A stretch of 64,000 nt of DNA from Oscillospiraceae bacterium. Its GTDB lineage: Bacteria > Bacillota > Clostridia > Oscillospirales > CAG-272. Of the stretch, positions 1,472 through 64,000 are shown in pieces. The translations under genes and the position numbers were made by a program. Within the stretch, counting starts at the first letter, position 1. The number at the start of each line of letters is the position of its first letter. The DNA lies in the NCBI GenBank assembly GCA_015064505.1, contig SVSB01000001.1, positions 1-64,000 of the forward strand. Reading direction: 5' to 3'. The notes under the pieces were generated by a model. That model was not told the origin of the DNA and made no database searches. It saw only the letters and a list, made by a program, of their open reading frames with translations.

Positions 1472-3898
1472 ATGTCCGCAACCGTAGAAACCGTAGATAA
1501 ATATATATTACCCGCAGTTCCCCTCCGCTCCATTGCCGCATATCCCGGTATGCCCATATCCCTGGAGCTTGGGCGCAAGCGCTCTATTGCCGCCCTTGAG
1601 GAAGCAAACGCAACCACGGGTAAGCTTTTCCTTATCCCTCAGAAGGATCCCAACACCGAGCGCCCCTTTGCCGACGATCTTTTCGACGTGGGCTGCATTG
1701 CCAAGATAAAGAGCGTGTCCAAGACCAAGGAAGGCACCGCAAGAGTGCTTTTTGAGTGCGAGGACCGCGCAATGATCACGAACGTTATTCAGCGCAAGGG
1801 CTACATCGCCGCAGAGGGTCTCGTTAAAAAGGTAGCTCTCAAAAGCAACGGCGTGAAATCCGAGGCGCTGATGGGGGAGGCAAGAAAAGCCTTCCAAAGA
1901 ATGGCGGAGCTTACGAGCGGCCTGCCGGATGAGATCAAATTTGCCGTTGACACCGTAAAGGATCCGGGGCTTCTTGCTGATTTCATCGCCGCAAACGCCT
2001 TGAACCGCTTTGAAAGCAAAATAAAGATTCTTTACGAATTCGATCCCATCTGCCGCATTGAAATGCTTCTCCTTTGCATGGAGGAGGAGATCAAGGTGCT
2101 GGAGTACGAGGCAGACATTGCCCGCAAGGTACGCAGTGCCATAGACGATAATCAGCGCGATTACTATCTGCGCGAGCAGCTGAACGTTATCCGCGACGAG
2201 CTTGGCATGAACGACGACGACGAGGACTTCGAGCAGCGCATACGTTCCGCAAAGCTGCCCGAGGAGGTGGAAAGCAAGCTCCTCAAGGAAAATCTCCGTC
2301 TTTCCAAAACTCCCTTCGGCTCTGCCGAGGGCAACGTGCTTCGCAACTACATAGAGACCTGCCTTGAGCTGCCCTGGGGCGTTACCACACCCGAAAGAAA
2401 GAGCCTGAAGCAGGCGCGCCGCATCCTTGACCGCGATCACGAGGGCATTGAGGACGTTAAAAAGAGAATACTTGAATATCTGGCGGTAAGAGAGCTTACC
2501 GATAAGCCCGCAAGCCAGATAATATGCCTTGTTGGCCCTCCCGGTGTTGGTAAGACCAGCGTTGCCCGCTCCATTGCCGAGGCACTTAACCGCAAATACG
2601 TACGCGTTGCTCTGGGCGGCATCAGAGACGAAGCGGATATCAGAGGTCATCGCAAGACCTACGTCGGCGCCATGCCCGGCAGAATTATTGAAGCCATCGG
2701 CCGTGCCGAAACCTCCAACCCCCTTATTCTCCTTGACGAAATAGACAAGCTTGCAAACGATTTCCGCGGAGACCCCGCTTCCGCACTTCTTGAGGTGCTG
2801 GACAGCGAGCAGAACAAATTCTTCCGCGATCATTTCCTTGAGCTGCCCTACGATCTTTCCGGCTGTATGTTCATTGCAACCGCAAACGATCCCTCGGGCA
2901 TCCCCGCTCCCCTTTACGACCGTATGGAGATAATCGAGCTGAAGACCTATACCTACAGCGAGCGTCTTGCCATTGCCAAGCACCACCTTATCCCCAAGCA
3001 GCTTGAAAAGCACGGACTTACCTCCGCACAGCTGAAGATCACCGACGCGGCGATTAACAAGATCATCCGCAGCTACACGAGAGAGGCGGGCGTGCGTAAT
3101 CTGGAGAGAGAGATCGGAAGCATCTGCAGAAAGTGTGCCGCAGGTATAGTGGGCAAGGAATACGAAAAGCTCACCGTTAAGCCCGATAATCTTGCAGAGC
3201 TTCTTGGTCCCGAGAAGCTCATCCCCGAGATGATCCCCGAGAAGGATACCGTTGGTCTCGTAAACGGACTTGCATACACCGAGAGCGGCGGAGCCATGCT
3301 CCCCATCGAGGTCGCTCTGCTTCCCGGCACGGGAAAGATAGAGCTTACGGGCTCGCTCGGTGACGTTATGAAGGAAAGCGCTCATATTGCCGTAAGCTTC
3401 ATCAGAAGCCGCGCGGAGATACTGGGCATAGACCCCGATTTTTACAAAACGAAGGATATCCATATTCACGCCCCCGAGGGAGCGATCCCCAAGGACGGCC
3501 CCAGTGCGGGTATTGCCATGACCGTTTGCCTTGCAAGCGCCCTGACGAACAGACCCGTTGACCGCACCGTTGCAATGACGGGCGAGGTTTCCTTGCTTGG
3601 GCGCGCCATTGCCATCGGCGGCCTTAAGGAAAAATCCCTTGCCGCCCTTCGCGCAGGCGCCAAGACCGTGCTTATCCCCAAGGATAACGTAAGGGATATG
3701 CAGAGATTACCAGATGAAGTAAAGCGCGGCATCTCCTTTATACCCGTTGAAGACGCTGATACGGCCATTGAGCTCGCTCTGCTTTCCGCGGCGGCAAAAA
3801 AGGAGCGCACGGAAAAAAGGGGCGAAACAGATTTTGCTCCCATCCCCTCGAAAAAGAATTACGTACCCCTTAACTGCTCCGCAAAAAATAACGAATAA
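1472..3898 (+). CDS. lon: ATP-dependent endopeptidase La (Lon)
   Basis: 808 aa; Walker A GPPGVGKTS, LDEIDK, catalytic segment PKDGPSAGIAM. Confidence 0.97.
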   Translation: MSATVETVDKYILPAVPLRSIAAYPGMPISLELGRKRSIAALEEANATTGKLFLIPQKDPNTERPFADDLFDVGCIAKIKSVSKTKEGTARVLFECEDRAMITNVIQRKGYIAAEGLVKKVALKSNGVKSEALMGEARKAFQRMAELTSGLPDEIKFAVDTVKDPGLLADFIAANALNRFESKIKILYEFDPICRIEMLLLCMEEEIKVLEYEADIARKVRSAIDDNQRDYYLREQLNVIRDELGMNDDDEDFEQRIRSAKLPEEVESKLLKENLRLSKTPFGSAEGNVLRNYIETCLELPWGVTTPERKSLKQARRILDRDHEGIEDVKKRILEYLAVRELTDKPASQIICLVGPPGVGKTSVARSIAEALNRKYVRVALGGIRDEADIRGHRKTYVGAMPGRIIEAIGRAETSNPLILLDEIDKLANDFRGDPASALLEVLDSEQNKFFRDHFLELPYDLSGCMFIATANDPSGIPAPLYDRMEIIELKTYTYSERLAIAKHHLIPKQLEKHGLTSAQLKITDAAINKIIRSYTREAGVRNLEREIGSICRKCAAGIVGKEYEKLTVKPDNLAELLGPEKLIPEMIPEKDTVGLVNGLAYTESGGAMLPIEVALLPGTGKIELTGSLGDVMKESAHIAVSFIRSRAEILGIDPDFYKTKDIHIHAPEGAIPKDGPSAGIAMTVCLASALTNRPVDRTVAMTGEVSLLGRAIAIGGLKEKSLAALRAGAKTVLIPKDNVRDMQRLPDEVKRGISFIPVEDADTAIELALLSAAAKKERTEKRGETDFAPIPSKKNYVPLNCSAKNNE

Positions 3899-53420: not shown

Positions 53421-54761
53421 TCAATCGATGCTGCAGAAGAATTCCCAAAGCTCCTCGGTCAGCGCGGCGATGCTTTCACCATTTTCGGCACGCTCCGCGA
53501 GGGAGGGCTGCATTTTTCTAAGCCCTGCGTACAGTGCGTTCGTTTTGTCATAAAATCCCGCAAAATCCGGACGGACGACGGGAACATATTCGTCGTACAT
53601 CGTTTTGATGGCGGTATAGAGGCTTTCGTAGCCCGCATCGTCAAAGTCATAATCTTCGATCGCTTCAAACGCGCCGTTCGTCACCGGCATATAGCCCGTA
53701 CTGACCACAAAATCCAGATTCCGTTCACCTTCGGTAAACCATCTTACAAATTCATATGCGGCTTCCGCCTTTTGATCGGTCGTTTTGAAAGCACACAAAC
53801 CAACGCCGGTCTGGGGCATATATTCGTTTTCCCCACCCGTTCTCGGCAAAGGAAGCACCTTCAGCTCCATGGCCTCGGAGGTATTGTCGGGATAAGTGAC
53901 GGTATCGTTATAATATCCCACCGCCGCCGAGGAGCCGATGCCCGAAAGCACCTCGCCGGTCATGACCTGGGTGTTTGCGTACAGATCGGATACGACGATA
54001 TGTCCCTTGGCAAGCGCTTCGGCAAACATGGAGAAGGATTCCTTGATGGCGGGATCGTTCTCGTCATACCAGCCGTTTTCCGTGTATTCAAGCTTTCCGT
54101 AACGGGAGAGAATATCAAGCTCCATGTGGCGGATCAGGTAGTCAAGGGCGCAGAATGCACTGCCTCCCGACCACTCATAGTATTTTTCTGCGGCAGCAAA
54201 GAAAGAGTCCCAATCGGACAGGCTTTCATAGGTTACGCCGGTATCCGCTGAAAAGCGCGCAAACTGCGAGCCGTTTACAAACAGCGCGTAGGTAGATTTA
54301 GACACGGGAAAAACAACGAGCTTTTCTTCGATAACGCCGCTTTCTATAAACTCGGGCACGTAATTATCCAATTCCTTTTCGGCAAACCACTGGCTCCAGT
54401 CCAGCAGATTCTCAATGCCGAACGCCTGTGCGTTCTGCGTGTGGCAGGAAAAGAGATCGGGAAGTTCGGGAGCTCCCGGCTTGCCTGCCTGCGCATCCAG
54501 AAGCTGCGCCTGAATTTTTGACGTGCTCGTTACGTTGGTAACCTGAACACGAATGCCCTTCTCACGTCCGACCGTTTCGTTGAATTCTTTGATCAGCAGA
54601 TTCATGGGCGCGTCTGCCTGCTCGCCGTAAACGTGCCAAACGGTAAGTGTGACGGGGTCGCTCGGGTCAAGCAGTGACTTGTCGGAGCAGGCGCAAAGCC
54701 CTCCGAGTGCAAAGGCCAAAAATAGAATAACCGAGAAGATGCGTACAAGTGTCTTGTTCAT
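53421..54761 (-). CDS. Extracellular solute-binding lipoprotein (sugar-ABC type), no permease nearby
   Basis: MNKTLVRIFSVILFLAFALGGLCACSDKSLLDPSDPVTLTVWHVYGEQADAPMNLLIKEFNE lipobox and SBP fold motifs. Confidence 0.92.
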   Translation of the reverse strand: MNKTLVRIFSVILFLAFALGGLCACSDKSLLDPSDPVTLTVWHVYGEQADAPMNLLIKEFNETVGREKGIRVQVTNVTSTSKIQAQLLDAQAGKPGAPELPDLFSCHTQNAQAFGIENLLDWSQWFAEKELDNYVPEFIESGVIEEKLVVFPVSKSTYALFVNGSQFARFSADTGVTYESLSDWDSFFAAAEKYYEWSGGSAFCALDYLIRHMELDILSRYGKLEYTENGWYDENDPAIKESFSMFAEALAKGHIVVSDLYANTQVMTGEVLSGIGSSAAVGYYNDTVTYPDNTSEAMELKVLPLPRTGGENEYMPQTGVGLCAFKTTDQKAEAAYEFVRWFTEGERNLDFVVSTGYMPVTNGAFEAIEDYDFDDAGYESLYTAIKTMYDEYVPVVRPDFAGFYDKTNALYAGLRKMQPSLAERAENGESIAALTEELWEFFCSID

Positions 54762-55099: not shown

Positions 55100-55468
55100 A
55101 TGCCGAAAAAGCAAACCGCGGCGTATAAGATCATCTCGGATTCCGGCGGAAACCGCTATAAGTTTTACTGCGACCTGACCGGGGCGCTTTTATGTACCAC
55201 GAAGCCGTACCGTGCGGACACACCCGAGAAAGAGCTTGAGCTTGCATGGAATAACGAGGGCAAAGCGCATTTTAATTTGTGCCACAAATGCGGCAGATGG
55301 GTAATCGATGCGATGTATAACGCAGACGCGCTGGAATGCGTTTCCTGCTCGCCTTGGGAAAACACGCCCGAATTCTGCAAGTTCTGCGGCACGAAAGTAT
55401 CTTTCTCCGACGCAGTATGTCCGATGTGCGGAAAACAACTTATTTACGGGGGGTGCTTTGATGATTGA
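55100..55468 (+). CDS. Zinc-ribbon protein 1
   Basis: CHKCGRW, CVSC, FCKFCGTKVSFSDAVCPMCGKQL; AAGGAGG RBS. Confidence 0.85.
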   Translation: MPKKQTAAYKIISDSGGNRYKFYCDLTGALLCTTKPYRADTPEKELELAWNNEGKAHFNLCHKCGRWVIDAMYNADALECVSCSPWENTPEFCKFCGTKVSFSDAVCPMCGKQLIYGGCFDD

Positions 55469-55745
55469 TACCACGGAAAGTCCGAAATACGTCCGTCTGG
55501 AAGCCTTCGGCATGGGCCCTTACGCCATGAAAAAGATCAAGATATGTCCGAGGTGCGGTCAGATAGCGAAAAGAACTTCTTTGGTGTGTTATGCGTGCAA
55601 AAAAATACTGACGCGCAAAACGCTCTTTGACGAATACAAAATGATGCATTTCTGCTGTCCTTCGTGCGATATTCCCCTTACGTTGGATACGCAGTATTGC
55701 CCGCATTGCGGCAGAAAAGTAAGCTTTAGCTCGGGCGAACAATAA
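55461..55745 (+). CDS. Zinc-ribbon protein 2
   Basis: KICPRCGQIAKRTSLVCYACKK...CCPSCDIPLTLDTQYCPHCGRKVSF; overlaps the upstream stop. Confidence 0.85.
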   Translation: MIDTTESPKYVRLEAFGMGPYAMKKIKICPRCGQIAKRTSLVCYACKKILTRKTLFDEYKMMHFCCPSCDIPLTLDTQYCPHCGRKVSFSSGEQ

Positions 55746-55771: not shown

Positions 55772-58522
55772 ATGAAAAAGATCAAATGCTTGAACCGAAT
55801 ATTCGCTATGGCGATAGCAACCGTTTTGCTTATCGGTTCCTTTTCCACGTCGGTTTTCGCGGCGAAGGAGAATTTTACAACATATCAGATCGATGACGTT
55901 ACCATTACCGGAATCGATGCTCCCGAAGCGGGCAAACCGTTCGATTTTACAGCAGAAGAGAGCTCGCAGAAATATAACGTTATCAAGGTTGCCTGGAAGT
56001 CGCAGTTCGGCAACAATTACATAACCGACACCTCTGTATCTGCAACTGCAGGAACGCAATACACGGTGTACGTGGTTCTTGAGGTTGCAACGGCTGATCA
56101 TTATTTCCATACCGACAGCGGAAGAATGCCTGCAGTTTCAAGCGTCACCGTAAACGGCTATACTGCAAACGCAAGCAATTCAATGGATTACAGCCTTTTC
56201 TCGGTAGACGCGTCCAAATACGAGCACGATACCACGTATCAGAAATATCTGGTCGTTACGTATACCTTCCCGGAAACCGAAGCTGCTCCTATCACAAGCA
56301 TAGATTTTAACGTTCCCACCCTTGTGCTCGGACAGCTCATTCCCACCACCTGGCAAGCTTCGGGAATAAGCATTGAAGGCATAAACGGAAACGCGAACAA
56401 CGGCCAGGTCAGCGTCAACAAGATCGAATGGTCTTTGCAGGACGGCACTAGTCTGCCGGGCAACTCAGCCTTTATATTCGGACAGACGTACTCGCTGAAG
56501 CTTACGCTGAGTCCGCTCTACGGCGCAAGCTTCGCTACCGATCCGAACCATTTTCTCTCTCAGCCCGGCAAGCCCTTCCCCGCCGTTACGGTGACCATGA
56601 ACGGAAAAACGGCCACCGTGCTTCCGACTTACGATAACTATTCCAATATGTACTTAGTCGCATCATGCGTATTCAGCTGCGACACGCCGTCAAAAATAGC
56701 GAAGATCGATCTCACCGACATTGATGCGCCCGTTGCGGGAAAAGCGCCCGATTATACCTTCATAGGCGGCGGTGGATATGAGCACAACGGCAGAAGCGAC
56801 GCCTATTACAAGAACGGTGTGTGCTGGTCCGAGGTGGGCAGCTCGTACGTTCTCTCCGACGGCACGCAGGCATTCCTGCCCAACAAGGCGTATCAGGTAG
56901 ATATCCGCATCAAGGCAAAGACGGGATATGAATTTGCCACTGATTCTTTCGGCATCGTTTCCACGGCTGTCACCGTCAACGGTAAGAGCGCATCCGTCTC
57001 CGGAAACAAGAACGAAATTCTCATTACCTGCGAGTTCCCCGCTACGGGTAACCTGGCCATTGGCAAGATAGGAGTTACGGACATTGAACTACCCGCCGAG
57101 GAAAGCACCCCCGATTACAACGTAACTTACTTAAACGTCAACTACGGCGCCGCCAATTACAACAACGCAACCACGAAGAACGGTATTTCCTGGTACAACG
57201 AAACTGATAGCAAGGTCATGTCCACCACCGACAAGTTTGAGGCAGGCAAGACCTATACTGTGCAGATCACGATCTGGACCAACGAGGGCTATGAGTTCCT
57301 ATATGATTTGGGCGAGGTAAACGTGGACGGTACCGTCAACGGCGAGAAGGCCGAGGTAAGCTCGCGCCACAACGAGGAAGTTACGCTTTCCTACAGCTTT
57401 CCGAAGGTAGTTAAGCACAAGCACTCTCCCATAAAGGTGGACGAAGTGAAAGCAACCTGTAAGGAAGAAGGCAAAAAGGCGTATTACTACTGTTCCGAAT
57501 GCGGCAAGATCTTCGAGGATAGCAAGTGTACCATCGATATCTACGACGTCAACACTTGGGGAACGATCGAAAAGCTTGAGCATACCGGCGGCAAGGCGAC
57601 CTGCGACACCCGTGCGATCTGCAAAAACTGCGGTGAATACTACGGCGATCTTGCGGAACACAACTTCGGAAGCACGTGGGATTATAAGGACGCATTGGGC
57701 CACGCACACAAATGTAAGGTTTGCGGCGTCATCGATACCGTTATTCCTCACGGCGGAGGAACCGCAAAGTGCGGAGAACTGGCAAAATGCGCAGAGTGCA
57801 AGACCGAATACGGCGAAGTGATGCAGCATCAGTGGAGCAAAACTCCCGAATACACCGATTCCAAGGGACACGCATATATATGCACCGTTTGCGGCGATCA
57901 CGACGATATCGTGAAGCACTCTCCCGGCCCGGAGGCAACCGAGACCTCCTCCCAAAACTGCACCGTGTGCAATTACGTGATCACTCCCGCAAAGCAGCAT
58001 AAGCACACCCTTACCAAGGTTGAAAAGACCGATGCCACCTGCACGACAGCAGGCCAAGAACAGCACTACGTCTGCGACGGATGCGGCAAGCTTTTCAGCG
58101 ACAGCAAGGGAAACACGGAGATCACGGACAAGGACAGTCTGGTCATCCCCGCCACAGGTCACAAGGATTCCGCGTGGAAGTCCGATGCTGACGTGCATTG
58201 GAAAGAATGCACCGTTAAGGGCTGCGGTGAGCTGACCGTAGAAAAAGGATCACACGAATTCAACAAGGCAGGCAAATGTACCGTTTGCGGATACGTTTCC
58301 GAAGATGAAACCGACGAGCCCAAGACAACGGACAGCGCCGCCGAAGACGATACGACCGTCCCCGACGAACCCGATGATACCACGGAAGTAAATGACCCCG
58401 CAGACGATAACGAAAGCAACGCGGTAATGTGGATCGTTCTTATTGCTTCCGGTGTATTAGCCGTTGCTTGTATCGCTATCGTTGCAATAGTGCTCGTGAA
58501 AAAGAATAAGAAAAAATCATGA
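55772..58522 (+). CDS. Large surface protein with repeated domains, CxxC modules and C-terminal TM anchor
   Basis: Signal peptide (IATVLLIGSFSTSVFAA); three DUF-like repeats; several CxxCG modules; C-terminal AVMWIVLIASGVLAVACIAIVAIVLVKKNKKKS. Confidence 0.88.
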   Translation: MKKIKCLNRIFAMAIATVLLIGSFSTSVFAAKENFTTYQIDDVTITGIDAPEAGKPFDFTAEESSQKYNVIKVAWKSQFGNNYITDTSVSATAGTQYTVYVVLEVATADHYFHTDSGRMPAVSSVTVNGYTANASNSMDYSLFSVDASKYEHDTTYQKYLVVTYTFPETEAAPITSIDFNVPTLVLGQLIPTTWQASGISIEGINGNANNGQVSVNKIEWSLQDGTSLPGNSAFIFGQTYSLKLTLSPLYGASFATDPNHFLSQPGKPFPAVTVTMNGKTATVLPTYDNYSNMYLVASCVFSCDTPSKIAKIDLTDIDAPVAGKAPDYTFIGGGGYEHNGRSDAYYKNGVCWSEVGSSYVLSDGTQAFLPNKAYQVDIRIKAKTGYEFATDSFGIVSTAVTVNGKSASVSGNKNEILITCEFPATGNLAIGKIGVTDIELPAEESTPDYNVTYLNVNYGAANYNNATTKNGISWYNETDSKVMSTTDKFEAGKTYTVQITIWTNEGYEFLYDLGEVNVDGTVNGEKAEVSSRHNEEVTLSYSFPKVVKHKHSPIKVDEVKATCKEEGKKAYYYCSECGKIFEDSKCTIDIYDVNTWGTIEKLEHTGGKATCDTRAICKNCGEYYGDLAEHNFGSTWDYKDALGHAHKCKVCGVIDTVIPHGGGTAKCGELAKCAECKTEYGEVMQHQWSKTPEYTDSKGHAYICTVCGDHDDIVKHSPGPEATETSSQNCTVCNYVITPAKQHKHTLTKVEKTDATCTTAGQEQHYVCDGCGKLFSDSKGNTEITDKDSLVIPATGHKDSAWKSDADVHWKECTVKGCGELTVEKGSHEFNKAGKCTVCGYVSEDETDEPKTTDSAAEDDTTVPDEPDDTTEVNDPADDNESNAVMWIVLIASGVLAVACIAIVAIVLVKKNKKKS

Positions 58523-59106
58523 AACCGCGAGGTGAACCCATGAAATGGCTTTTCCTCGGGCTTGGAGTCGCATTTGCCGCCCTGATCTGCGGCATCGCGG
58601 CATTCCGCCGAAACCTTCCCGAAAAAACCAGCGAAGATATAGACGGCGGCGTTGTCAAACGCTACCGGACCGATATGCCGAAGGTAATTGAATCTACCGA
58701 AATCGTGAGCTTCCAATGCGTGATCTCTTTGATTGCCGCGTGTGAAGCAGAAGGCTTGGGACACCGCGTATATAAGCTTGCCGCCGAAGTGCGTGACGGC
58801 GAGGTGCTTGTAAAATACGATTGGCGTGAGCGCGGCGGCAAAAGCGACAGGGCTGAATATACGGCTGAGGCGGATTTTATGGTGCGCCTGCAAAAAATCG
58901 TTTCCGATTACGATCTTGCAAGTCAAAACGGATATTACCATAACGTCAGCGGTCTGCCCGATATGTACGGAGGAAGTTTGGATATCGTATACGCCACCGA
59001 CGAACGAATTCATATCCACGATAACCAGAGTGGGATTCTGCCGCCCGAAGCCGAAAGGGAGCTTATTTTGCTGTTCGGCGCGGCAACGAAGCTTGAACGC
59101 GAATGA
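58519..59106 (+). CDS. Hypothetical membrane-anchored protein
   Basis: N-terminal TM MKWLFLGLGVAFAALICGIAAF; ATGA overlap with upstream CDS. Confidence 0.75.
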   Translation: MKPRGEPMKWLFLGLGVAFAALICGIAAFRRNLPEKTSEDIDGGVVKRYRTDMPKVIESTEIVSFQCVISLIAACEAEGLGHRVYKLAAEVRDGEVLVKYDWRERGGKSDRAEYTAEADFMVRLQKIVSDYDLASQNGYYHNVSGLPDMYGGSLDIVYATDERIHIHDNQSGILPPEAERELILLFGAATKLERE

Positions 59107-59122: not shown

Positions 59123-59686
59123 ATGTCAATTTTTGATAAACTGAAGAAAAACGTACAAACTGCGGTGAGATCTGCCGCAACGGCTGCTTTTGCAAGCGAG
59201 GAGACCTTCACGTTTGCGGCACTTCCCGAAAGTCTTGCCGAGATGAAGGCATTGCCGGAAGCATCCCTTGCCAGCCCCTTTGCAACGGCGGCTCTTACCG
59301 TTTGCGCGCTGTGCGCGTATGCTGCAGATAAGTCCATCGGCACGGAAATGCTCAATTATCTGCGCGGTCCCCGTCCGCTGTCCAATCACGATATCTCTTT
59401 CCTGAACGATCGCTTCAGCGAAGTGCGCTACGTTCCCTTCTCCTACTTCAAGGGTGCCGTTCCCGCCAACGATTACACGCCCGACACACCCTTTACCGTC
59501 ACCGTCACAAGCGGTCCCTATTCCGACGCAAACGAAGGCTATAAGAAGCTCTATATAAAAAGCGGCGGCGCTGACAGCCCGCGCGAGATAGTCCTGAGAA
59601 GGCTTGGGGACGGAAGATGGATGCTGTGGGATCAGTTTCTGCTTGTGAGCATCCGCAAGTCGGGATCCGACGATCCGTGGGCGTGA
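59123..59686 (+). CDS. Hypothetical protein
   Basis: 187 aa with GGAGG RBS (aaggaggaatctga-atg); coherent operon position. Confidence 0.7.
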   Translation: MSIFDKLKKNVQTAVRSAATAAFASEETFTFAALPESLAEMKALPEASLASPFATAALTVCALCAYAADKSIGTEMLNYLRGPRPLSNHDISFLNDRFSEVRYVPFSYFKGAVPANDYTPDTPFTVTVTSGPYSDANEGYKKLYIKSGGADSPREIVLRRLGDGRWMLWDQFLLVSIRKSGSDDPWA

Positions 59687-60156
59687 GAATACGGATACTG
59701 ACGGCCGTTATGATATTTACTGCGCTGTTTGGTTTGTTCGGATGCAACGGAGGGGGCAAAAAGACGGTCACTTCCGTAGAGGCGGTGACGCTCGTCCTGC
59801 AAACGATGCGAGGGAGCTGCGTATACAAGGTTGAGGGCAACGGAGACGCAAAGGAGCTGAGGCGATATCGGGAAATCTACCGCAGCGAAGCAGTGGAGCT
59901 TGTGCTTGAGCTGAGCGTTCCCTGCGATGCGCAAAAGCTGACCGAGCTTATGAATGCCTGCGGTATCCTTCGTTGGGACGGCTTTCACGGCAAGCATCCA
60001 AAAAACGTCTCCGACGGAACCTCGTTCCGCTTTGAAGCCACGGTAAACGGCGGACAGACGATCCGCGCTGAAGGTTCTGCGAATTTCCCCAAAGGCTACA
60101 ACGAATTTGTCAGCGCTCTGAATGCGATGCTTGCAGAGCACGAAAAGACCGAATAA
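59683..60156 (+). CDS. Hypothetical lipoprotein, GTG start overlapping upstream TGA
   Basis: (V)RIRILTAVMIFTALFGLFGCNGGGKK lipobox; GTGA overlap. Confidence 0.7.
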   Translation: MRIRILTAVMIFTALFGLFGCNGGGKKTVTSVEAVTLVLQTMRGSCVYKVEGNGDAKELRRYREIYRSEAVELVLELSVPCDAQKLTELMNACGILRWDGFHGKHPKNVSDGTSFRFEATVNGGQTIRAEGSANFPKGYNEFVSALNAMLAEHEKTE

Positions 60157-60340: not shown

Positions 60341-60775
60341 ATGCGTTATGTTGGAAAATGGGTCTTTCACTCCATTGGAGCGGTGACGGATGCCGATGAA
60401 CCGGTATATCTTAATGCCGAGGAGTATCTGAAATCTCCAATGCCGTATATCGACGAAACGGATGAAGAAGCGGTTGCAGGCGAGCTTCGGGAGAGAAAAT
60501 CCATGATCGGAATGCAAATAGAGATCTGCGAGGACGGAAAGCTGTACACGCTGATGCCTCTTCCCGAAGGCGTTACCAAAGAGGAGGTCGATGCAGCCGT
60601 TGCCGCCGGTGAGATAATGCTGCGAGGAGGCATGATGACTAACGGTCCCGCATCGTGGGAGGAACGGGACGGCGTGCTGTGGTATACCACCGAGCTCAGC
60701 GAGGACGGGTGGACGAGAGGCTCGGACGACGGCTTTGTTTTCTTCATGACCGTACGGTTTGCAAAAGCCGAATGA
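60341..60775 (+). CDS. Hypothetical protein
   Basis: 144 aa ORF, MRYVGKWVFHSIGAVTDADEPVYLNAEEYL...; AGGGGG upstream. Confidence 0.7.
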   Translation: MRYVGKWVFHSIGAVTDADEPVYLNAEEYLKSPMPYIDETDEEAVAGELRERKSMIGMQIEICEDGKLYTLMPLPEGVTKEEVDAAVAAGEIMLRGGMMTNGPASWEERDGVLWYTTELSEDGWTRGSDDGFVFFMTVRFAKAE

Positions 60776-61216: not shown

Positions 61217-61323
61217 CGTCTTTTAAAACACACGGACGAGGAGTGAGGGTTTTTGCGGTTTTGCGGTAACACAGATCTCCCTGCGGCGGAAAAGCCCAAC
61301 GGGAGTTACGGAAGGAGAACAAA

Positions 61324-64000
61324 ATGAATCAGAAAATGAGAAGAATATGGAGTATACTGCTCTGCTTTTTGCTGTTGATCGGAATATTTCCGAGATATAC
61401 ACAGCATAACGAATTTCACAGTCTTGCCGAGCTGGAATTATCTTTCGACGGTCACGACGGTCACGGTCACGAAGATCACGGTCACGACGGTCACGGTCAC
61501 GAGGATCACGATCACGAAGGTCACGGTCACGGTGATCAAGACGACCACGACCGTGAGGAGCTTGATTCCCGCGCTGCGTTCGATCTGTTATCGGTTTTCG
61601 AGGATATTCTTGAGTTTTCGCTGTCACTTTTTGCAACGCCCGTATACGCCGCCTACGAGGACGGCGTGGAGTGCGAATACTGCGGCGGCTGGCGTTACGA
61701 CGATTGGAAATGTGACAACGGCGACCACTGCGGCGAGGGTGCCGACGGCGACTGCTACGAGGAGCATCACTGCGGATACTGCGGTGCCTGCGAGGATGAT
61801 AACGAGCTGTGCGACGATTGCGGCAACTGTCTTGACGAATGCTGCGAGTGCGACGAAAAGTGCCGCGGATGCTATTCAACGAGCGGCGACGTGTGCGACG
61901 TATGTGGAGAAAAATGCACGGAATGTGTGGATTTCATCTGCGATGACTGCGGCATCTGTGCCGATTGTGCGGGCAACGACCTGTACTGCTCCGAATGTAT
62001 GCTGTGTATCGGCTGTGCCGATTGGATATGCTACTGCGGCGGTGGCTGCTCGGAATGCACAACGGGCTGCGAGCAATGCTATGAAAAGTGCATGGTCTGT
62101 GCAGAAGACGAGATCTGTGGCGACTGCGGAACCTGCTTTGACTGTCTCGGCGGTGACGGTAACTACTGCTCTGAATGTCTGCTGTGTAAATTCTGTGTTG
62201 AATACATATGTGAATGCGGCAGAGGCTGTTCCGAATGTGTACTGATCTGTGAGCAATGCCAGGAAAAGTGCGAGCAATGCGCCGACGGCGGAATTTGCCA
62301 GGACTGCGGTGTTTGTTTTGACTGCGTGGGCGGTGACGGCAACTTCTGTCAGAACTGTGAGCTTTGCAAATTCTGCGTTGAATACATCTGCACCGGCTGC
62401 GGTGAGGGTTGCTCGGAATGTGCCATAATCTGTTCGGAATGCGGCGAGAAGTGCGAAAGCTGTGCGGACGACGAGCTGTGCGGCGAGTGCGGGGTATGCT
62501 TTGCTTGCCGCGGAGGAGAGGGTAATTACTGTTCTGACTGCGGTTTATGCAAAATGTGCGTGGATTACGTCTGCGCCTGCGGAAACGGATGCTCGGAGTG
62601 CTCCTACGTATGCCCCGAATGCGGCGAAAAATGTTCAGCCTGCGCCGAGGAAGAGATCTGCATAGAATGCGGTACCTGCTTTGACTGCGTGGGCGGTGAG
62701 GGCAACTTCTGTTCCTCATGCGGCTACTGTAAAAACTGCGTCGACTACATCTGCTACTGCGGCGAAGGATGCTCGGAATGCGCTATTATCTGCGTGGCGT
62801 GTAACGAAAAATGTGAAAAATGCGCCGATGACGAGCTGTGCGCCGATTGCGAGCGCTGTTTTGATTGCGCAGGCGGCGACTTCTGTGCCGAATGCGGCTT
62901 ATGCGGTGAATGCGTTGAGGTTCTGTGCGCCTGCGGCAACGGATGTAATAATTGTGCAGAAGTGATCTGCGAGAGCTGCGGTGAAAAATGCTCAAACTGT
63001 GCCGAGGATGAGCTGTGCACGGAATGCGGCACCTGCCGCGATTGCGTGGGCGGCGACGGCAACTTCTGCGACACCTGCTCAATTTGTAAAAACTGCGTGG
63101 ATTATATCTGCGTGGGATGCAGCGAGGGCTGCTCCAATTGCGCGGAGATCTGTCCCGAGTGCGGCGAAAAATGCGAAAACTGCGCAGCGGATGAGCTTTG
63201 TGCAGACTGCGGCGTCTGCCGCGACTGCGTGGGCGGCGACGGCAACTTCTGCGACACCTGCTCTCTCTGCAAAAACTGCGTGGACTACGTCTGCTCCGAG
63301 TGCGGTCAGGGCTGCTCCAATTGCGCGGAGGTCTGTCCCGAGTGCGGTGAAAAATGTAATCAATGCGCAAACGACGAGATGTGCTCGGATTGCGGAATCT
63401 GCGTGGATTGTGTCGGTGCGGAGAATTTTTGCGTGATGTGCTCACTCTGCCATGAATGCGTGGAGGCGGTGTGCGCCTGCGGAGAGGGCTGCTCCAACTG
63501 TGCCACCGTATGCTCGGATTGTAACGAAAAATGCTCTAACTGCTCCGACGGTGAGGTGTGCACGGAATGCGGCAAGTGCGTTGACTGTGCGGGTGCGGAC
63601 AGCTTCTGCATAAACTGCGGACTCTGCTCGGACTGCGGCGTTATCTGCCCTTGCGGCGAGGGATGCGAAAACTGTGCGGATCTCTGCCCTGACTGCGGCG
63701 AAAAATGCTCCAACTGCACGGACGAATTCTGTGTGTCCTGCGATATTTGCCGTGAATGTGCGGAGGATATCTTCTGCGAGGATTGTTATCAGTGCGGCGA
63801 ATGCACGGAAATATGCGATGACTGCGGCACCGTCTGTGCCGACTGTGCCGAGAGCGTGTGCGAGGAGTGCGGCAAATGCTCCGGATGTATTGATGAATTC
63901 TGTCCCGACTGCGGCGTCTGCATTGACTGTGCCGACAGCATGTGCCGCGACTGCTATTACTGCGGCGACTGTACCGATAACATCTGCGTTGACTGCGGTG
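61324..64000 (+). CDS. Giant secreted Cys-rich repeat protein with His-rich N-terminal region (3' end outside window; not in ORF track)
   Basis: AAGGAGAACAAA-ATG; uninterrupted for at least 892 codons; hydrophobic N-terminus; (D/E)GHxxH repeats; about ten ~60-aa repeats of the type C-PEC-GEKC-xxC-ADDELC-xxCGxC-xxC-VGGDGNFC-xxC-xLC-KxC-VDYIC-xCGxGC-SxC. Confidence 0.9.
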   Translation, partial: MNQKMRRIWSILLCFLLLIGIFPRYTQHNEFHSLAELELSFDGHDGHGHEDHGHDGHGHEDHDHEGHGHGDQDDHDREELDSRAAFDLLSVFEDILEFSLSLFATPVYAAYEDGVECEYCGGWRYDDWKCDNGDHCGEGADGDCYEEHHCGYCGACEDDNELCDDCGNCLDECCECDEKCRGCYSTSGDVCDVCGEKCTECVDFICDDCGICADCAGNDLYCSECMLCIGCADWICYCGGGCSECTTGCEQCYEKCMVCAEDEICGDCGTCFDCLGGDGNYCSECLLCKFCVEYICECGRGCSECVLICEQCQEKCEQCADGGICQDCGVCFDCVGGDGNFCQNCELCKFCVEYICTGCGEGCSECAIICSECGEKCESCADDELCGECGVCFACRGGEGNYCSDCGLCKMCVDYVCACGNGCSECSYVCPECGEKCSACAEEEICIECGTCFDCVGGEGNFCSSCGYCKNCVDYICYCGEGCSECAIICVACNEKCEKCADDELCADCERCFDCAGGDFCAECGLCGECVEVLCACGNGCNNCAEVICESCGEKCSNCAEDELCTECGTCRDCVGGDGNFCDTCSICKNCVDYICVGCSEGCSNCAEICPECGEKCENCAADELCADCGVCRDCVGGDGNFCDTCSLCKNCVDYVCSECGQGCSNCAEVCPECGEKCNQCANDEMCSDCGICVDCVGAENFCVMCSLCHECVEAVCACGEGCSNCATVCSDCNEKCSNCSDGEVCTECGKCVDCAGADSFCINCGLCSDCGVICPCGEGCENCADLCPDCGEKCSNCTDEFCVSCDICRECAEDIFCEDCYQCGECTEICDDCGTVCADCAESVCEECGKCSGCIDEFCPDCGVCIDCADSMCRDCYYCGDCTDNICVDCG
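61444..61560 (+). repeat. Short tandem repeat encoding His/Asp/Gly-rich segment
   Basis: Repeats of GGTCACGACGGTCACGGTCACGAAGATCAC-like units encoding FDGHDGHGHEDHGHDGHGHEDHDHEGHGHGDQDDHD. Confidence 0.85.

Follow-up and report, generated by a model that had tools for sequence, protein, structure and literature searches.

A giant cysteine-rich protein encoded last in a conserved set of genes of an Oscillospiraceae bacterium: anatomy, conservation and a candidate metal-binding role

The DNA analysed here (the window) is a stretch of 64,000 nucleotides at the start of a contig (C39:1-64000), from a draft genome of 2.46 Mb in 72 contigs. At its far end, the sequence-only reading had reported a giant secreted protein made of Cys-rich repeats. 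The locus raises the question of whether this array is a genuine gene product and, if so, what would hold together a protein of such Cys density outside the cell.

Anatomy of the gene and its product

The frame opens at ATG 61324, preceded by GGAAGGAG, and runs for 892 codons without a stop to the window end, so that the claim of an open frame with a good ribosome binding site (ggaaggag) was borne out. Extension into the parent contig, which had been proposed as a check, placed the end of the stop at contig position 65334 and gave a full protein of 1,336 aa, with a transmembrane (TM) helix and RKKK at its C-terminus; the ORF had appeared incomplete solely because the window boundary falls inside the gene. 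The features of the gene inside the window are as follows:

61309..61318, + strand: ribosome binding site ggaaggag, read from the sequence, just 5' of ATG 61324
61324..64000, + strand: coding sequence of the giant Cys-rich protein, residues 1-892 of 1336 inside the window; dN/dS about 0.1 against orthologs
61324..61395, + strand: predicted signal sequence, first hydrophobic segment MNQKMRRIWSILLCFLLLIGIF, read from the sequence and found in all orthologs
61450..61554, + strand: His/Asp-rich insert HDGHGHEDHGHDGHGHEDHDHEGHGHGDQDDHD, His-rich, its sequence unconserved among main-type orthologs
61573..61653, + strand: second hydrophobic segment with a signal-peptidase-I-like AxA site (TPVYA/AYEDG), a similar site being present in main-type orthologs
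61654..61887, + strand: N-terminal Cys/His domain YEDGVEC-x2-CGGWRYDDWKC...HC...CYEEHHC-x2-C (alignments A1 and A3), also in distant relatives
61894..63684, + strand: ten units in tandem, each 58-61 aa long and carrying 16 Cys in four 4-Cys lobes, residues 191-787
63685..64000, + strand: degenerate Cys-lobe array (C-x2-C-G-x-C-x2-C-x4), running past the window to about residue 960

The ten units of about 60 aa proposed at 61894-63684 proved exact, each holding exactly 16 Cys, and the degenerate CxxC repeats described after them continue to about residue 960, beyond which different domains follow. The Cys-rich region spans about residues 115-960 and holds 221 Cys in 846 aa (26%), in agreement with the quarter estimated earlier over more than 600 residues; it is also very acidic, with 179 D/E against 34 K/R. 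Past the array lie HTH(E)Y/CxC repeats of the type HTHEYTSVVNKPTCESGGYTTHTCECGHTY, common to many proteins of the relatives, and a Ser/Thr/Pro/Gly-rich linker, in whose region one stretch weakly resembles Flg_new (Listeria-Bacteroides repeat) at a score under the threshold, precedes the C-terminal TM helix.

The signal sequence is split, since its first hydrophobic segment is followed by an insert with 14 His and by a second hydrophobic segment, with the AxA right before YEDG. His-rich inserts of differing sequence occur in the main-type orthologs and in a more distant relative (L051). In the insert-free distant relatives (L025, L046, L048, and L049) a single ordinary signal peptide ends at the same point, from which we infer that the mature protein probably begins at (A)YEDG and that the His segment probably belongs to a pro-region. 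The N-terminal Cys/His domain shares 73-97% identity among main-type orthologs and is recognizable in other Clostridia families; its structure model (pLDDT 51) was too poor for a fold search. Regarding the description of the protein as secreted, export is supported by the signal sequence and free secretion is not, in view of the C-terminal TM helix and RKKK, which suggest that the protein is probably membrane-anchored.

Clusters of the CxxCGxCxxC pattern were found nowhere else in the genome, and no other Cys array was detected there. Rfam searches detected no RNA family in the 64-kb window, and promoter and terminator scans did no better than chance. A second, incomplete lon gene (G000:C40:1-1638) is 86% identical to the lon of the window (1472-3898), possibly denoting a strain mixture in the MAG.

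Conservation and the upstream gene module

Orthologs are present in MAGs of gut Clostridia, several of the named carriers having been recovered from the gut of ruminants, namely roe deer, sheep, goat, and water buffalo. Most share 52-65% identity, their lengths range from 989 to 1,402 aa, and each carries about 170-270 Cys. The N-terminal domain was carried by 5/391 genomes in the class sample and by 5/394 in the order sample, counts that include the window's own genome. In comparisons with seven orthologs, array Cys are retained at 99-100% of aligned positions vs. 52-71% for other residues, with pN of 0.16-0.28 and pS of 0.67-0.79 (dN/dS about 0.1). The existence of orthologs, the retention of Cys, and pN lower than pS demonstrate that the gene is real and under selection, and not a product of chance; low-complexity noise was rejected as an explanation of the array on the grounds of dN/dS and Cys conservation. 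A viral origin was likewise rejected, because no relative was found among the viral contigs searched.

Judged by eye, the C-terminal end of some relatives is of another kind, being SLH-like in L033 and dockerin-like in L025, L026, L046, L051, and L052. In the L033 ortholog (L033:1315-4284), SLH-like repeats stand in place of the TM anchor, and one unit has an internal deletion. The related protein of L051 (L051:6488-10606, genome G587) has 1,372 aa, 314 Cys, a His-rich insert, and its dockerin-like C-terminus. L025 and L026 (both G015), L046, and L052 encode distant Cys-rich exported proteins, whose dockerin-like repeat ends suggest attachment to a partner protein instead of a membrane anchor.

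The giant gene closes a run of genes on one strand, ZnR1-ZnR2-CHrep916-hyp195-DUF6935-hyp179-(hyp144-hyp141)-Cys protein, flanked by a divergent gene:

53421..54761, - strand: solute-binding lipoprotein (SBP_bac_8), divergent, with linkage to the module seen in two further lineages
55100..55468, + strand: ZnR1, small zinc-ribbon-like protein, first gene of the module (DZR, E 4e-4, under the cut-off)
55533..55745, + strand: ZnR2, a small protein of double-zinc-ribbon type (PF12773, E 2.3e-8), its start codon provisional
55772..58522, + strand: CHrep916, 916-aa exported protein with Cys/His repeats, a C-terminal TM segment and KKNKKKS, kept in the module
58519..59106, + strand: hyp195, with an N-terminal membrane segment, kept in the module
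59123..59686, + strand: DUF6935 protein (PF22043, E 3.2e-54), kept in the module
59617..60156, + strand: hyp179, probable lipoprotein (LFGC lipobox-like), kept in the module, start codon uncertain
60341..60775, + strand: hyp144, at a variable module position, 83% identical in L035
60791..61216, + strand: hyp141, directly upstream of the giant gene, its L035 ortholog 76% identical and the order kept

In the ortholog loci, parts of this series are kept as far as the contigs reach, and the downstream genes are unconserved; a solute-binding protein gene adjoins the module in two of these loci. Module proteins are 74-75% (ZnR1), 75-79% (solute-binding protein), and 72-95% (DUF6935) identical between carriers, whereas housekeeping identities are lower (Lon, 47-60%; MnmA, 39-47%). 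Since the module identities exceed those of Lon and MnmA, and a genome of the same genus in the sample lacks the N-terminal domain, it is likely, judging from these comparisons, that the module has spread by horizontal transfer, protein-specific rates being the alternative. A role in anti-phage defence was considered and rejected, PADLOC having returned no match for the giant protein or its module neighbours; also, no metal-efflux or metal-resistance gene was recognized in the module. Furthermore, the 916-aa protein carries HxH...CxxCG repeats, matched no family, and is 41-63% identical in other carriers. Downstream of one ortholog, on the opposite strand (L002:4457-7048), lies a gene with a GH32-like C-terminal half (sucrose-6-phosphate hydrolase/beta-fructosidase) and an unmatched N-terminal extension.

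Four-cysteine lobes and their likeness to known systems

The earlier statement that the repeats belong to no standard family agrees with profile searches of Pfam, NCBIfam, and PDB, which yielded no family match. The first 892 aa matched nothing in Pfam or NCBIfam, the full protein matched only Flg_new in Pfam (E 0.026, under the cut-off, in the C-terminal part), and 44 two-unit rows plus 9 N-terminal rows gave nothing significant in either database. An AlphaFold model of two units, built with the 44 rows (pLDDT 71, pTM 0.44), consists of short turns and bridges with almost no helix. With this model, Foldseek against PDB and the BFVD fold search returned nothing significant; the best eight Foldseek entries were mostly zinc-finger (TFIIH/PHD/FYVE/RING), and none was a disulfide-rich rod. 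Comparable bacterial repeats were not found in the open-access literature, and the CxxC protein of PMC12637426 was dismissed as a counterpart because its operon is a different one that includes a ferredoxin and TlpA.

What the array does display is a four-Cys periodicity. In the orthologs, Cys spacing is autocorrelated at lag 4 (0.24-0.47) and lag 16, and a parse into lobes of the form C-x2/3-C-x2-C-x3-8-C absorbs 84-91% of Cys, whereas shuffled sequences average 46-50% and never exceed 64%; the lobe boundaries are our reading, as a parse offset by one Cys yields equal counts. Lobe 2 of the typical unit reads CGxCxDCVGGEGN[FY]C, that is, C-x2-C-x2-C-x7-C with 3,3,8 spacing, and its loop has 7 residues in 54 of the 86 parsed lobes, 6 in 22, and 8 in 10. 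The four structural-zinc ligands of zinc-dependent medium-chain dehydrogenases (MDR), which include alcohol dehydrogenases (ADH), are spaced in this way, at 97, 100, 103, and 111 (PMC9895041). When a two-unit profile was compared with all PDB sequences, the sole match below E=1 was a lobe of 5vkt (CRTCESCSTGHENYC; E 0.2), a cinnamyl alcohol dehydrogenase, and the matched part is its structural-zinc loop, with an N-Y-C end that also closes lobe 2 of most full units; the next PDB sequence match was the Cys-rich region of Rubicon (E 2). The 5vkt match is weak alone; combined with the four-Cys periodicity, it suggests that each molecule has about 55 lobes in series, with one metal apiece.

In this context, the giant protein can be likened to the structural-zinc lobe of ADH, and perhaps to the variant-specific surface proteins (VSPs) of Giardia, membership in neither being claimed. 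The MDR lobe is single and sits inside a cytosolic enzyme, whereas here about 55 would stand in tandem in a protein predicted to be exported and having no enzyme domain, and homology is not claimed. Giardia VSPs are likewise CxxC-rich, with Cys less dense than in the giant protein, and are found on the cell surface, as predicted here; however, they are eukaryotic, while the present protein is bacterial, with strict 16-Cys tandem units, and the Pfam VSP profile was absent from the 44 two-unit rows at E 1 and from the full protein at E 0.5. Metallothioneins share the Cys density and, if metal is bound here, the metal-thiolate logic, but they are small and cytosolic, with no Pfam match to this protein, which has regular 60-aa units, conserved Gly/Asn/aromatic positions, and a predicted surface anchor. 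Many Cys in CxxC-type spacing are also seen in the copper storage proteins (Csp1-3, DUF326), some of them exported, although these are four-helix bundles holding Cu(I), and the two-unit model is non-helical. The CPxCG..C knuckles of DZR (PF12773) are similar too; within the module ZnR2 alone matches that family, the giant protein being unmatched at E 0.5.

Metal or disulfide: competing readings and their meaning

The choice left by the sequence-only reading, metal or a disulfide rod, can be narrowed, on indirect evidence, in favour of metal, probably zinc, with a disulfide rod less likely. We consider that the protein would form, with a slightly better than even chance, a cell-surface metal-thiolate array, an anchored chain of tetra-Cys lobes with zinc as the first candidate. 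Judging from its signal sequence, the protein would be exported by Sec and anchored through the C-terminal TM helix, or in relatives through SLH-like or dockerin-like ends, so as to display about 55 four-Cys lobes, four per 60-aa unit and joined by linkers of 1-2 residues. Each lobe may ligate one tetrahedral metal ion, most likely zinc, as the ADH structural-zinc lobe does, and metal would serve as the folding staple in place of disulfides in an organism in which no exported disulfide system was recognized. The His/Asp-rich segment of the split signal region may gather metal before or during export, and the likely use would be a metal-stapled, protease-resistant surface rod doubling as a large zinc reserve.

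This preference derives from the four-Cys quantum, the ADH structural-zinc spacing, the isolated Cys-to-His swaps, and the failure to find disulfide enzymes, and the reading is further favoured by the 99% retention of Cys, the His-rich inserts, the zinc-ribbon partners in the module, ZnuA in the same genome (6/10 carriers have it), and the mostly zinc-finger, albeit not significant, top Foldseek entries. It is weakened by the E of only 0.2 for the PDB match, the lack of significance in Foldseek, the moderate repeat model, an acidity that comes on top of the negative charge which zinc-tetrathiolate sites already bear, and Asn, not a usual zinc ligand, at one Cys column.

A surface rod stapled by disulfides, in which Cys would pair after export, spontaneously or through an unidentified oxidant, into a metal-free EGF- or VSP-like stalk, would fit the extracellular location, the even number of Cys per full unit (16), and the strong acidity, which suits neutral disulfides better than thiolate clusters; moreover, oxidative folding is present in some clostridial species (PMC12453122). 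Nevertheless, we regard it as unlikely. VKOR (0/13), Thioredoxin_4 (0/12), and DSBA (0/10) were not found in carriers, control genomes being positive, although these absences are relative, as the carriers are mostly incomplete MAGs and the search covered these three families; another oxidant, or a DsbA-like enzyme of a different family such as SdbA (AhpC/TSA-like), may be present. Obligate anaerobes also tend to keep Cys out of exported proteins, according to a passage of PMC12453122 citing Daniels et al. (2010). Besides, the only substitutions at Cys columns in the 44 two-unit rows are His at one position (CKDHVDY/CKEHVDY) and Asn at one position (CYNGDGC), which leave 15-Cys units with no partner Cys lost, and no fold match to disulfide-rich rods was obtained.

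Scavenging of soft metals (Cu(I), Cd, Hg) by a Csp- or metallothionein-like protein that would guard the cell from toxic metal is consistent with the very high Cys density, the His-rich segment, and weak DUF326 matches in 8/44 two-unit rows (best E 0.013). Such a role appears quite improbable to us, given that DUF326 matched neither the window's own two-unit row nor the full protein at E 0.5, that the fold of Csp proteins is a four-helix bundle (PMC12510493) and the repeat model is almost devoid of helix, that the module has no recognized efflux or resistance gene, and that the lobe spacing is of zinc type. Even less credible is an extracellular Fe-S array, with a 4Fe-4S cluster in each CxxCxxC...C carrying or storing electrons. 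Its CxxCxxC motifs and acidity resemble those of bacterial ferredoxins and the four-Cys quantum would suit it, but the Pro that follows the fourth Cys in ferredoxins is absent and no ferredoxin family matched; in addition, Sec exports unfolded protein, and Fe-S assembly is not known to occur outside the cell.

Returning to the zinc-first metal array, a Cys-dense predicted surface protein in gut Clostridia without recognized disulfide enzymes is a marked exception to Cys exclusion, and it raises the testable question of whether metal, instead of disulfide, can be the staple of an extracellular rod. Giardia VSPs are reported to bind zinc, and a 2015 review considered them the only surface Zn-finger proteins known in any organism (PMC4488794). 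We tentatively put forward, as a possibility short of an even chance, that the present protein may represent a new bacterial surface class, in which a horizontally moving module ends in a giant chain of ADH-like zinc lobes outside the cell. A His-rich pro-segment would load this chain, and an anaerobe would thereby gain a coat stapled by metal, as well as a reserve of zinc, in analogy to the VSPs. Were the protein indeed loaded with zinc, each molecule would hold about 55 Zn, an amount that would count in the competition for metals within the gut of ruminants.
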